Assembly (NCBI GenBank): GCA_016198905.1
Contig: JACQHR010000007.1
Coordinates: forward strand, 1-41,633
Reading direction: 5' to 3'
DNA length: 41,633 nt
DNA from: Candidatus Omnitrophota bacterium
GTDB taxonomy: Bacteria > Omnitrophota > Gorgyraeia > Aquiviventales > Aquiviventaceae
Shown: positions 13,877 through 36,817 of the stretch, piece by piece
Layout: the number at the start of each line of letters is the position of its first letter
How positions within the stretch are numbered: position 1 is the first letter of the stretch
The notes under the pieces: generated by a model
Databases searched by the model: none
Told to the model about the DNA's origin: nothing
Seen by the model: the letters and a program-made list of their open reading frames with translations, nothing else
Program-made: the position numbers and the translations under genes

Positions 13877-13958
13877 GTATCTTCGGCAGCCCGGCCATCT
13901 GTTGAAGACCCGTGGCTTTGCGTCCCCGCCTCACGACGGGTTTGCCTTTCTCGGATAC
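13877..13958 (-). promoter_or_regulatory. Cyclic-di-GMP-I (GEMM) riboswitch aptamer
   Basis: The minus strand reads, in order, the conserved GEMM-I blocks: GGCAAACC, then GGGGACGCAAAGCC with its tetraloop-receptor and ligand-contact segment, ACGGGTCTTC, and GATGGCCGGGCTGCCGA. The pair GTATC (13958-13954) and GATAC (13881-13877) closes stem P1. The aptamer lies just upstream of an intrinsic terminator and the secreted protease gene, so c-di-GMP should switch transcription of the protease. The direction of the switch cannot be told by eye. Confidence 0.93.
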
Positions 13959-32209: not shown

Positions 32210-32214
32210 GCGAA

Positions 32215-32305
32215 TTGGAAGCTGGAATCTAGAGGCTGGAAATTGGAACAAAAATGCCGTTGACAGGACCTCCAGTTTCCAGCATCCAGCATCCAGCTTC
32301 CCAAC
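32215..32305. repeat. Heptamer inverted-repeat pair between the small ORF and tpx
   Basis: Five units on each arm: TTGGAAG, CTGGAAT, CTAGAGG, CTGGAAA, TTGGAAC at 32215-32249 and TCCAGTT, TCCAGCA, TCCAGCA, TCCAGCT, TCCCAAC at 32271-32305. The arms are imperfect reverse complements around 21 nt. The unit family matches 8510-8583. Confidence 0.88.
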
Positions 32306-32317
32306 ATGTTCGCAGAA

Positions 32318-32860
32318 TTACCTCGCGAGTTGCCGCGTCGCCGCGAGTGCGGCGTCGTAGTTCGGATGCGAGGTCACTTCAGGCACATATTCCACGTAGC
32401 GAACGGTGCCCGCGCCATCGACGAGCACAATCGCCCGGGTCAGGAGCCGCAGTTCTTTGATCAGCATCCCGTACGCCTTTCCAAACGAGGCGTCCTTGTG
32501 ATCGGACACCACCTTGACCTTGTCGATCCCCGCCGCTCCACACCAGCGCTTCTGCGCAAACGGCAGGTCCATGCTGACGGCCAAGATCTGGACGTTCGGG
32601 AGCTTCGCCGCTTCCTCGTTCAACCGCCGCGTCTGCGCGTCGCACACCGGCGTATCCAGCGAGGGGACGACGCTGATGAGGAGTGTCTTGCCCTTGACGC
32701 TGCTCAGCGTCACGGGAGATAAATCCTGTGCGATTGTTTGGAATTCCGGCGCTCGGGCGCCCACTGTAATTGCCGGTCCAATGAGTGTGAGCGGATTGCC
32801 CTTGAATGTGACGGCGCCGACGCGCTCTTGGGGCGAGCTCGACACGGTTGCTGTTGCCAT
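32318..32860 (-). CDS. tpx: Thiol peroxidase (atypical 2-Cys peroxiredoxin)
   Basis: A 180-aa Tpx reducing lipid and alkyl hydroperoxides with thioredoxin. The peroxidatic Cys73 is in PSLDTPVCDAQTRR, and the resolving Cys107 is in FAQKRWCGAAG, the Tpx arrangement. The N-terminal TFKGNPLTLIG and C-terminal YVEYVPEVTSHPNYDAAL also match. It has a good ribosome site (GAGGAGGATC) before its ATG. A promoter lies at 32901-32929. Confidence 0.95.
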   Translation of the reverse strand: MATATVSSSPQERVGAVTFKGNPLTLIGPAITVGARAPEFQTIAQDLSPVTLSSVKGKTLLISVVPSLDTPVCDAQTRRLNEEAAKLPNVQILAVSMDLPFAQKRWCGAAGIDKVKVVSDHKDASFGKAYGMLIKELRLLTRAIVLVDGAGTVRYVEYVPEVTSHPNYDAALAATRQLAR

Positions 32861-32900: not shown

Positions 32901-32929
32901 ATGCTAGCGAAAGGCCAACGGAACGTCAA
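32901..32929 (-). promoter_or_regulatory. tpx promoter
   Basis: -35 TTGACG (32929-32924), 17-nt spacer, -10 TAGCAT (32906-32901), about 40 nt before the tpx ATG. A MITE-like element begins 27 nt upstream of the -35. Confidence 0.55.
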
Positions 32930-32955
32930 GGTAGCGCCATGCTTGTGTCGTGCTT

Positions 32956-33081
32956 GGTGATGGTCAAGTTTGGCGGGTCCTGCGACCGAGGCCGGGTACC
33001 CACGAAGTGGGTGGCCGATGGGAGTGCCGGAAGCCGTGAGGCAACGGCCCGCTGCGTCACCCACCAAACTTGACCACTACC
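32956..33081. mobile_element. MITE-like element with 23-bp terminal inverted repeats and 8-bp target duplication
   Basis: The ends (32956-32978 and 33059-33081) are inverted repeats over 23 nt with three mismatches; the core TGGTCAAGTTTGG is exact. The direct repeat TCGTGCTT flanks the element on both sides (32948-32955, 33082-33089). The interior has no open frame but folds well: ACCCAC-GAA-GTGGGT and GCCGT-GAGGCA-ACGGC hairpins. The 126-bp size and 8-bp duplication fit a non-autonomous derivative of a DDE transposon. The window contains no matching transposase. Confidence 0.75.
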
Positions 33082-33087
33082 TCGTGC

Positions 33088-33116
33088 TTGACGCCCCGTT
33101 GCCTCGACGGTAGAGT
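33088..33116 (+). promoter_or_regulatory. Promoter of the YgfZ-like gene (leaderless)
   Basis: -35 TTGACG (33088-33093), 17-nt spacer, -10 TAGAGT (33111-33116), then 8 nt to the ATG at 33125. The -35 begins inside the right target duplication of the MITE-like element. Confidence 0.55.
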
Positions 33117-33124
33117 AGCCCATC

Positions 33125-34225
33125 ATGGTCATTCCTCTGTTGTTACACGGCAAACATGCGACCGCGCCTGTGCTCTACCAACCTTTTGGCCCGTGGATTG
33201 TGCCGTGGCGCCATACCTCTCTCGCAAATGAATATGACGCGCTGCGCCGGACGGTCGGACTGATCGACGGCTCCACGCAAGCGCTCATCGAAGTGCGGGG
33301 AGCGGATCGCGTCAGTTTCTTGCATAACCTGCTCACCAACGACCTCAAGCGGCTCGTTCCCGGCACCGGATGCCAAGCCGCGCTGCTCGATGCCTCGGCG
33401 AAATTGATCGCGCCGATGCTCGTCCTCGCCGACGCGGACGCGTTGTGGCTGCTCTGCGAGCTTGACCGAGCGACCGTAGTTATGGCCGCGCTGAATCGGT
33501 ATCTTTTTGCGGAGCAGGTGACACTCGTGAATCATGAGCGACAACACGCCGTCTTGGCCCTCGAAGGACCTCGAGCGACGGAGCTGCTATGTCGCGCTGC
33601 AGATACTCCGATGCCGGAGCTGCCCAACGCAGGCGACCACGGCATCCTCATAGTCCAAGGCATCCCGGTGCGGGCGATCAGATATAGCCTCATCGGCGGT
33701 CATGGCGCGCTCTGCCTCGTCGCCCTGGACGACGCCCAGACGGTGTGGGAGCATCTTCAGCGAGTTGGCGTGCCGTTTGGCCTGCAACTCGTGGGGTGGG
33801 AAGCGCTCAACGTGGCCCGCATCGAAGCCGGCATCCCATGGTTTGGGATCGATATGGACGAAACGCATCTGCTGCCGGAAACCGGATTGCAAAACATGAC
33901 GGTCAGCGACACGAAGGGCTGCTACCTCGGTCAGGAAATCATCGCGCGGTTGCAGACGTACGGCTCCGTCAGCAAACGATTGGTGGGATTATTGGTCGAG
34001 GGGGATGACGTGCCGCGCACGGGAGATCGAATCGTCTCGCCGGGAAGCGACGAGACGCTTGGAAGCGTCACCAGTAGCTGCAATTCCCCCGCTCTTCATC
34101 GCCCCATCGCGTTGGGCTACGTGAAGCGCGGCGCGTACGATGCTGGAACGCGCGTCGACATCGTGTGCGGGAAGGCCCGCGTCCCCGCGACGGTCCAGGT
34201 GCCGCCGCTCGCGCCGTTCCGATAG
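33125..34225 (+). CDS. ygfZ: YgfZ/GcvT-like tetrahydrofolate-binding protein
   Basis: A 366-aa member of the YgfZ/IBA57 family, which uses folate to help make or repair 4Fe-4S clusters in certain enzymes. The family signature K-G-C-Y-x-G-Q-E is present as TKGCYLGQEIIAR at about residue 265. The GcvT-fold N-half has FLHNLLTNDLK and the lid domain ends ALGYVKR. It is not the glycine-cleavage T protein, which lacks the Cys motif. A role in maturing the many Fe-S enzymes encoded here (complex I, radical SAM, siroheme reductase) is inference. There is no ribosome site; see the promoter 8 nt upstream. Confidence 0.9.
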   Translation: MVIPLLLHGKHATAPVLYQPFGPWIVPWRHTSLANEYDALRRTVGLIDGSTQALIEVRGADRVSFLHNLLTNDLKRLVPGTGCQAALLDASAKLIAPMLVLADADALWLLCELDRATVVMAALNRYLFAEQVTLVNHERQHAVLALEGPRATELLCRAADTPMPELPNAGDHGILIVQGIPVRAIRYSLIGGHGALCLVALDDAQTVWEHLQRVGVPFGLQLVGWEALNVARIEAGIPWFGIDMDETHLLPETGLQNMTVSDTKGCYLGQEIIARLQTYGSVSKRLVGLLVEGDDVPRTGDRIVSPGSDETLGSVTSSCNSPALHRPIALGYVKRGAYDAGTRVDIVCGKARVPATVQVPPLAPFR

Positions 34226-35197: not shown

Positions 35198-36817
35198 ATG
35201 GACGCCGTCGGAATGCTCCTCAATCAAATTGCGCAGACGCTGCCGGAAAACCGCGCGCAGCTGCGCAAGCTCAAGACCGCGATCGCCTCGCAGGCGAAGC
35301 AGCCGCTCATCCGCAACGATGCGCTGCTGCATCGCTATCGAGCTGAACTCCTCGAAGGCCTGCGCAAACCCGATGAGCGGCTCTCGCAGATCCTGACCCT
35401 CAACGGCATCCGCTCTCAATCCGGGATCGCCACGGTCACGGTGATCACGAAGCCATTCGCCTGCCCGGGCCGATGCGTCTACTGCCCGACGGAAGCGCGC
35501 GCGCCGAAGAGCTATCTCACCAACGAGCCTGCGATCATGCGCGCGATCCGCAATGAGTACGACCCGTACGCCCAAGTGCGCAGCCGACTTGACGCGCTCG
35601 AGGAGACCGGCCACCCGACGGACAAAGTGGAGCTGATCATCAAGGGCGGCACGTGGTCGTTTTATCCGGAGTCGTATCAGCGTGAGTTCGTCCAGCGTTG
35701 CATCGAAGCGGCGAATGACTTCGGGCAGCACACAGCACACAGCACACAGCACACAGATCCGTGTCAGCAAGACGCAAGCCTGGAACTGACCCAACAACGG
35801 AATGAAGCGGCGAAGAACCGCATCATCGGCATCACGATCGAGACGCGTCCGGACTATGTTGATGCGGCGGAGATCCGTCGGCTGCGCGAACTTGGCGTCA
35901 CGCGCGTCGAGCTCGGCGTCCAGACGCTGGAAGAGTCGGTGCTCGACTTGATTGTGCGGGATCATGGTATTGCCGAAGTCCAGCACGCCACTCGCCTGCT
36001 GAAGAACGCCGGCTTCAAGGTCGCGTACCATCTCATGCCGAATCTTCCTGGGGCCACTCCGGCGAGCGACCTTGAGAGCCTGCGCACGCTCTTTACCGAT
36101 CCCGCGTATCAGCCGGACACGATGAAGCTGTATCCCTGTGCCGTCGTGGAAAGCGCCGAGCTGTACGAGTGGTGGCGGCAAGGCCGCTACACCCCGTACG
36201 ATGACGAGACGCTCGTTGAGCTGCTCATCGCAATGAAGCAGCTCGTGCCGCCGTACGTGCGCATCGAGCGCGTCATTCGCGACATTCCCTCGACCTCCAT
36301 TCAGGCCGGATCGCACACGACGAACTTGCGCGAAGAAGTCCACCGGCGCCTGCGCGCGCGAGGGCTGCGTTGCCGCTGCATCCGCTGCCGGCAAGTGCGT
36401 GACGATGCGACAGGATCGTTCGCACTGGTCAGGCGCGCATACGAAGCGTCCGGCGGGATGGAGATCTTCTTGAGCTTTGAGGATTCCACCACCGATCGGC
36501 TGGCCTCGCTGTTGCGCTTGCGCATCCCCTCTGCGCAAACCATTCCGCTTTGCTCGACGCTGCGCGATGCGGCACTCCTCCGGGAATTGCATTCGTACGG
36601 GCATCACGTGCCGCTGCACGAGACACGCGATCGCGCGGTCCAGCATCACGGCTTCGGTCGGCGCCTCTTGCTGGAAGCCGAACGCATGGCGCGAGACGAG
36701 TATGGGTTGCGCCGGATGGCGGTGATCGCGGGGGTGGGCGTGCGCGACTATTATCGAAAGTTCGGCTACGAACTGGAAGAGACGTATATGGTGAAGGAGC
36801 TTAGCGGGAAGCACTAA
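35198..36817 (+). CDS. elp3: Elp3-like tRNA uridine-34 modification enzyme (radical SAM + GNAT)
   Basis: A 539-aa homologue of the Elongator catalytic subunit, which builds carboxymethyl-type groups on wobble uridine. The radical SAM cluster motif is ACPGRCVYCPTEARAP (about 89-104), followed by KGGTWSFYPESYQ and GITIETRPDY. A lysine acetyltransferase domain (about 430-535) ends the protein (HGFGRRLLLEAER, VRDYYRKFGYELEETYMVK). Elp3 is common in archaea and eukaryotes and patchy in bacteria, where it acts alone. A heptamer array inserts QHTAHSTQHT at about residues 176-187, in a loop that varies among homologues. The stop codon lies in another array. Confidence 0.94.
   Translation: MDAVGMLLNQIAQTLPENRAQLRKLKTAIASQAKQPLIRNDALLHRYRAELLEGLRKPDERLSQILTLNGIRSQSGIATVTVITKPFACPGRCVYCPTEARAPKSYLTNEPAIMRAIRNEYDPYAQVRSRLDALEETGHPTDKVELIIKGGTWSFYPESYQREFVQRCIEAANDFGQHTAHSTQHTDPCQQDASLELTQQRNEAAKNRIIGITIETRPDYVDAAEIRRLRELGVTRVELGVQTLEESVLDLIVRDHGIAEVQHATRLLKNAGFKVAYHLMPNLPGATPASDLESLRTLFTDPAYQPDTMKLYPCAVVESAELYEWWRQGRYTPYDDETLVELLIAMKQLVPPYVRIERVIRDIPSTSIQAGSHTTNLREEVHRRLRARGLRCRCIRCRQVRDDATGSFALVRRAYEASGGMEIFLSFEDSTTDRLASLLRLRIPSAQTIPLCSTLRDAALLRELHSYGHHVPLHETRDRAVQHHGFGRRLLLEAERMARDEYGLRRMAVIAGVGVRDYYRKFGYELEETYMVKELSGKH
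35726..35756. repeat. Heptamer array CAGCACA x4 inside elp3
   Basis: Four perfect CAGCACA units plus CAG lie within the elp3 frame and keep it open. This is the same unit as at the nuoEF start, and both are read in the same frame to give QHTAHSTQHT. Confidence 0.95.

Follow-up and report, generated by a model that had tools for sequence, protein, structure and literature searches.

A probable two-layer composite of mobile elements between tpx and a ygfZ-like gene in an Omnitrophota genome

The tpx-ygfZ intergenic region

The window, i.e. the whole stretch of DNA analysed here (41,633 nucleotides), is contig C40 of a draft Candidatus Omnitrophota genome (G000; 1.41 Mb, 80% complete). It contains tpx, encoding thiol peroxidase, in divergent orientation beside a gene for a folate-binding YgfZ/GcvT-like protein, an arrangement that recurs in 12 of 19 other loci. 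The second gene is called ygfZ below, after the name given in the original prediction for this region. A 126-bp element lies between the two genes, and the features of the region are as follows.

32318-32860, minus strand: tpx (thiol peroxidase), lacking the insert found in the Tpx of a relative
32901-32929, minus strand: divergent tpx promoter-like site TTGACG-17-TAGCAT, from sequence
32948-32955, no strand: left target site duplication TCGTGCTT, from sequence and a cross-pairing null test
32956-33081, no strand: composite MITE of 126 bp (60-bp MITE plus 66-bp inner element), from sequence and removal in silico
32956-32978, plus strand: left terminal inverted repeat GGTGATGGTCAAGTTTGGCGGGT, which fits GGnnnTG, from sequence and an end-motif scan
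32984-33049, plus strand: the inner element or core, 66 bp (GACCGAG...ACGGCC), a copy of an Omnitrophota coding palindrome inserted between CCTGC and CGCTG of the MITE hairpin
32990-32993 with 33013-33016, plus strand: core helix P2, from covariation
32998-33003 with 33007-33012, plus strand: core helix P3, from covariation
33026-33029 with 33045-33048 (span 33026-33048), plus strand: core helix P4 with an inner hairpin, from covariation
33059-33081, minus strand: right terminal inverted repeat GGTAGTGGTCAAGTTTGGTGGGT as read on the minus strand, from sequence and an end-motif scan
33082-33089, no strand: right target site duplication TCGTGCTT, the last two bases of which lie inside the ygfZ -35 hexamer
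33088-33116, plus strand: ygfZ promoter TTGACG-17-TAGAGT, kept in six relatives without the MITE
33125-34225, plus strand: the ygfZ-like gene

Direct reading of the sequence agrees exactly with the original prediction of a 126-bp element that has 23-bp inverted ends with three mismatches (GGTGATGGTCAAGTTTGGCGGGT and GGTAGTGGTCAAGTTTGGTGGGT are identical at 20 of 23 positions) and TCGTGCTT on both sides. The ninth base (G) of the duplication also matches, so that lengths of 8 and 9 bp are indistinguishable. The TCGTGCTT pair outscored all 28 cross-pairings made with flanks of other elements. The strongly structured interior that had been predicted is likewise evident, both strands folding far better than shuffled sequences (z = -4.7 and -4.1). 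What the prediction overlooked is that the MITE houses a second mobile element, which makes up this interior.

The right duplication does overlap the ygfZ -35 box, TT (33088-33089) being common to the duplication and TTGACG. The further proposal that the insertion had reshaped the ygfZ promoter does not hold, since TTGACG-17-TAGAGT, or a version one base off, stands at a nearly equal distance from the ygfZ start in six relatives (G023, G020, G021, G015, G022 and G013) that have no MITE at this promoter. The -35 box therefore predates the insertion, which left it intact because the duplication restored TT. What the insertion changed is the sequence upstream of the -35 box and how far that box lies from its tpx counterpart: by arithmetic, the gap between the two divergent boxes went from 24 to 158 bp. 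It is possible that the MITE insulates the ygfZ promoter from tpx. Another genome (G011) carries its own MITE just upstream of ygfZ, and in G018 a TGA stands in frame within the ygfZ ortholog (L230, contig C65).

Two other repeats were observed in the vicinity. Short repeats CTGGAAATTGGAAC and CCAGCATCCAGC, unlike the MITE or core families, lie downstream of tpx (32210-32310), and an Elp3-like open reading frame (35198-36817, plus strand) contains a low-complexity in-frame stretch, GQHTAHSTQHTDPCQQDASLE, that resembles another inserted repeat family.

The outer MITE and its ends

The identification as a MITE, made originally from this single locus, is confirmed by many further copies with the same ends and with target duplications. 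G000 contains ten matches to the end motif GGTCAAGTTTGG and none to its reversed control, and GGTCAAGTTTGGYGGGT, with at most one mismatch, is present in 10 of 27 genomes of the same family, the controls again giving zero. Pairing of opposed ends yields 27 MITEs of 60-187 bp in seven genomes, a count that leaves out two pairs regarded as chance matches (L008:364-627 and L231). Target duplications of 7-9 bp with 0-1 mismatch flank about 20 of the 27, and most of these score above all 28 cross-paired controls. The copies are thus dispersed, with common terminal repeats and a target duplication of constant length; they also have the inner arms GGGTCCTGC and GGGTGACGC in common. Two of them (L202 and L209) contain a nested GCTTCG...CGAAGC hairpin, i.e. 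palindromes within palindromes.

The MITE termini, GGTGATG and GGTAGTG, both fit GGnnnTG, an end common to IS6-type and IS1-family elements (PMC6807381). These ends, the 8-9-bp duplication and the dispersed 60-187-bp copies are the same as in MITEs of the IS1 and IS6/IS26 types; the differences are the arms GGGTCCTGC/GGGTGACGC, a hairpin repeatedly occupied by a second element, and that no transposase gene with such ends was found here. We describe the outer element as a MITE whose ends are IS1/IS6-like, and do not call it a proven derivative of either family, because no transposase gene with the MITE ends was found.

A transposase with matching ends had been expected by the original prediction. 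No gene with ends of this type (GGTRRTGGTCAAG) was found in G000 or the relatives examined; the assemblies are drafts, so that this absence weighs little. The search employed Pfam models of the IS1, IS1595 and IS6 families and the IS1-like protein of one relative. IS1-like genes (PF03400) of about 270 aa occur in a few relatives and IS1595 genes (PF12762) in eight, none with MITE ends, no gene exceeded the cut-off for IS6 (PF13610), and G000 has no transposase gene of the three families by these models. The MITE transposase may be extinct, or may have been lost in assembly gaps; several MITE copies sit at contig ends, for which reason an autonomous copy could have escaped assembly. Viral contigs contained no exact match to the MITE ends or to the core.

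The inner element, its fold and its insertion sites

A search with the whole element located interiors without MITE ends in other genomes, and a covariance model of the core was built from 23 of them. The model finds about 150 matches, distributed over 21 of 27 Omnitrophota genomes of the same family; outside the family only 3 genomes of a 384-genome phylum sample contain the core. A pattern taken from the interior also matches several groundwater MAGs of Candidatus Omnitrophota; its scattered matches in other phyla do not extend to the remainder of the core and are probably due to chance. Searches against Rfam 15, at gathering and permissive thresholds, gave nothing relevant and no family match.

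All three helices covary among 111 aligned copies, in which 88.8% of cells pair and 440 double changes are observed. The covariation score is 0.46; slid controls reach no more than 0.067, and shuffles 0.11. The alignment was fitted to the model, but a MAFFT alignment of the seeds agrees with it. The unpaired GACCGA and CGAnGG are almost invariant across copies. That the helices covary while these unpaired bases stay fixed suggests that the core may be recognised as a folded single strand. The original prediction had taken RNA-type covariation as an argument against a mobile element; such covariation is indeed present, but it resides in the nested mobile element and is compatible with mobility. 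In many cores (e.g. L143, L120, L126, L138 and L145) a GCTTCG...CGAAGC hairpin is nested in the apical loop of P3.

The nesting can be reversed in silico. Once positions 32984-33049 (66 bp) are deleted, what is left is a 60-bp MITE identical, without gaps, at 56 of 60 positions to a 60-bp MITE on another contig of the same genome (C34). The left junction, CCTGC followed by the core, is common to 16 core copies, the same hairpin is unoccupied in 14 MITEs, and loci on G000:C5 and G011:C85 look like further composites of this kind. We infer that the core entered the MITE, rather than the MITE having formed around the core. The 16 cores at one junction could descend from one composite that later spread. 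By eye, the common MITE interior ('type A') had been suspected of homology to the core; the covariance model detects nothing there even with filters off.

Comparison of tpx between two congeneric genomes (G019 and G026) provides an empty site at the DNA level, since the flanks are otherwise nearly identical and the insert is exactly 90 bp (30 codons) between CTTCC and GAACG. A short CCGA repeat leaves up to 4 bp of this junction ambiguous. The ambiguity of the MITE-core junction is at most 1 bp, and therefore no constant target duplication can be assigned to the core. A C precedes the core in 109 of 116 copies. In long-form cores (12 copies), the first eight positions of the outer arms form 5.3 pairs, compared to 3.2 in cross-paired controls, and six or more pairs are formed in 7 of the 12, compared to 5% of controls. 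These numbers, from only 12 copies, suggest that long-form cores may have inserted at palindromes. The outer arms of L041, L042, L058, L060, L062 and other long-form cores vary between copies and are complementary within each.

Most of the 116 copies examined have no MITE ends and sit in other genes, tRNAs and spacers. When flanks were scored by codon usage, 40 copies had same-strand coding sequence on both sides, and 25 of the 40 keep the frame, where one third would be expected (P = 1.5e-4). The method misses some cases, the inserts in MiaB and ComM being scored as between strands. The core lies in frame inside about 20 conserved genes, among them those for MiaB, RecJ, UvrD, GatA, LeuRS and Tpx. 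Pfam domains that span the core or are split by it are UvrD, GatA, DinB, Redoxin/Tpx, COX15, CHASE2, MqnA, RecJ (two genomes, same site), GT9, DUF819, Cmk, MiaB, LeuRS, PdxJ, peptide deformylase, SAICAR synthetase, AddA-like helicase and Fmt. Because the spanning reading frames were chosen as open, this list alone is a biased test of frame, and the argument rests on the codon-usage count and the shifted cases. The frame-shifted cores examined lie between genes (ABC/SufB, YmdB/XseA, PBP/FtsW and PilZ/ACT) or the frame stops at the element, no frame-shifting intragenic copy being found among them. The in-gene copies are free of in-frame stops.

The Tpx of the window aligns with that of G026 over its full length except for a 30-residue gap, thereby representing an empty site at the protein level. 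In AlphaFold2 modelling with 13 Tpx sequences, residues 90-117 of the insert have pLDDT below 50 and the rest of the fold is mostly confident. The insert is presumably translated within the host protein as a loop of about 20-30 residues. Elsewhere, a core at the end of a NadA-like gene (L047, G021:C71) has a direct repeat of about 20 bp on its two sides, the last codons of the gene being part of the repeat, and three tandem cores lie between two domains of a TrpE/PabB-like protein (L150, G003:C18).

For tRNA genes, ARAGORN calls a tRNA spanning the junction of three copies once the core is removed in silico, two for tRNA-Gly and one for tRNA-Gln. The core-bearing tRNA-Gly genes may still be readable, because the tRNA is called even with the core in place. 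A second, intact tRNA copy follows two of the cores (L089 and L063), and the sequence after a third (L122) begins another tRNA-Gly. Other tRNA-like contexts (Pro and Glu), seen by eye, are candidates that ARAGORN did not confirm.

Interpretation and relation to known systems

We consider a two-layer composite of mobile elements, in which a non-autonomous MITE holds a nested structured palindrome, to be the best explanation of the locus, with a probability of roughly 88%. The MITE ends and duplications, the copy families, the nesting, the 90-bp empty site, the in-frame positions and the covariation of the fold are all seen directly. The outer layer would be a non-autonomous MITE, 60 bp long and bounded by 23-bp ends of IS1/IS6-like type. 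A DDE-type transposase absent from the assembly would have moved it in trans, making an 8-bp staggered cut, and the MITE would have landed between the back-to-back tpx and ygfZ promoters. The inner layer would be a 66-bp copy of the family-wide palindrome, inserted cleanly and with no target duplication. During movement, the core would be recognised through the fold that it adopts as single-stranded DNA or RNA. Copies within genes would survive if they keep the frame and contain no stop, the host protein gaining a loop of about 20-30 residues.

One could suppose that the core is a small intron-like RNA that is spliced or excised, and hence harmless in genes and tRNAs. The strong covariation and the insertions in tRNA genes would fit such an RNA. 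Splicing, however, would require neither the preservation of frame nor the lack of in-frame stops seen in the intragenic copies, nor an insert of exactly 30 codons in tpx; moreover, the tRNA-located cores adjoin another copy of the same tRNA and Rfam offers no match. We regard this explanation as quite unlikely. Very unlikely, too, is a plain MITE with ordinary structured filler, whose likeness to other loci would come from a family-wide interior. Every MITE copy does have a structured interior and the common arms GGGTCCTGC and GGGTGACGC, but in most MITEs the interior is of another kind, without a significant match to the core model, a core-free 60-bp MITE exists in the same genome, and most cores stand apart from MITE ends, one of them with an empty site in tpx.

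That the element acts on ygfZ or tpx as a cis-regulatory or non-coding RNA, its flanking repeats being coincidental, is in our view extremely unlikely. The intergenic position, strong fold and covariation agree with such a role, but the element lies upstream of the ygfZ -35 box and hence outside the predicted transcript, and its copies occupy dispersed, unrelated loci with target duplications. Furthermore, relatives lack it at the tpx-ygfZ site, as the original prediction had anticipated in proposing a search for an empty site.

Returning to the composite of two mobile elements, we note that in-frame coding palindromes have so far been reported mainly from Rickettsia and regarded as peculiar to that genus and its relatives. 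The core resembles the Rickettsia palindromic elements, or RPE (Ogata et al. 2000, 2002; reviewed in PMC2229807 and PMC10969869), in that both are small palindromes that lie between genes and in frame in unrelated conserved protein genes, both also enter RNA genes (tmRNA and M1 RNA for RPE, tRNAs for the core), and no target duplication is established for either. It differs in its GC-rich sequence, its occurrence in another phylum, its length (mostly 57-93 bp versus 105-146 bp), its covarying three-helix fold with the conserved unpaired GACCGA and CGAnGG, and its about 150 copies across many genera, some of them nested in MITEs. By its hairpin fold, its in-frame insertion in unrelated conserved genes and its insertion in RNA genes, the core seems to work like RPE; this is a likeness only, and kinship is not claimed.

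ERIC and Correia/NEMIS elements (PMC2229807) are also short inverted-repeat elements with some intragenic copies in frame, but they are single elements, most with 5'-TA-3' termini, whereas here a nested pair of separable families is found. REP/RAYT systems likewise consist of structured palindromes, possibly recognised as single-stranded hairpins; in contrast to these, Y1 transposase genes do not track the core across the 27 genomes. Y1 transposase (PF01797) was accordingly rejected as the mover, as its genes occur in 15 of 21 core-bearing and 4 of 6 core-free genomes, and no machinery for the core was found in the genomes examined.

A literature search, with most subscription journals outside its scope, returned no report of such elements in Omnitrophota. 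We tentatively propose, at somewhat less than even odds, that the core may represent a new mobile class: recognised by its fold and not by its sequence, free of target duplication and moving as single-stranded DNA or RNA, it would have seeded many housekeeping proteins of one Omnitrophota family with loops of 20-30 residues and would hitch-hike in MITEs. An apparently unrelated folded family in a distant uncultured phylum, spread over many genera and including essential enzymes and tRNA genes among its targets, would make such protein evolution by coding palindromes a general route. How such elements move becomes directly testable with this family: covariation can be read from about 150 copies, one insertion has a base-exact empty site in a congener, the boundary is defined, and the nesting in MITEs gives an order of events.

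Some minor features were also noted. A Y1 (IS200-type) transposase in a 150-aa frame lies at positions 74-433 of the window (minus strand) and is the only PF01797 match in G000. The window also contains a c-di-GMP-I-GGC riboswitch aptamer (13881-13955, minus strand, 76.6 bits), and a second aptamer of this class lies in G011 (L045:1342-1424), about 100 bp from a MITE-core composite.
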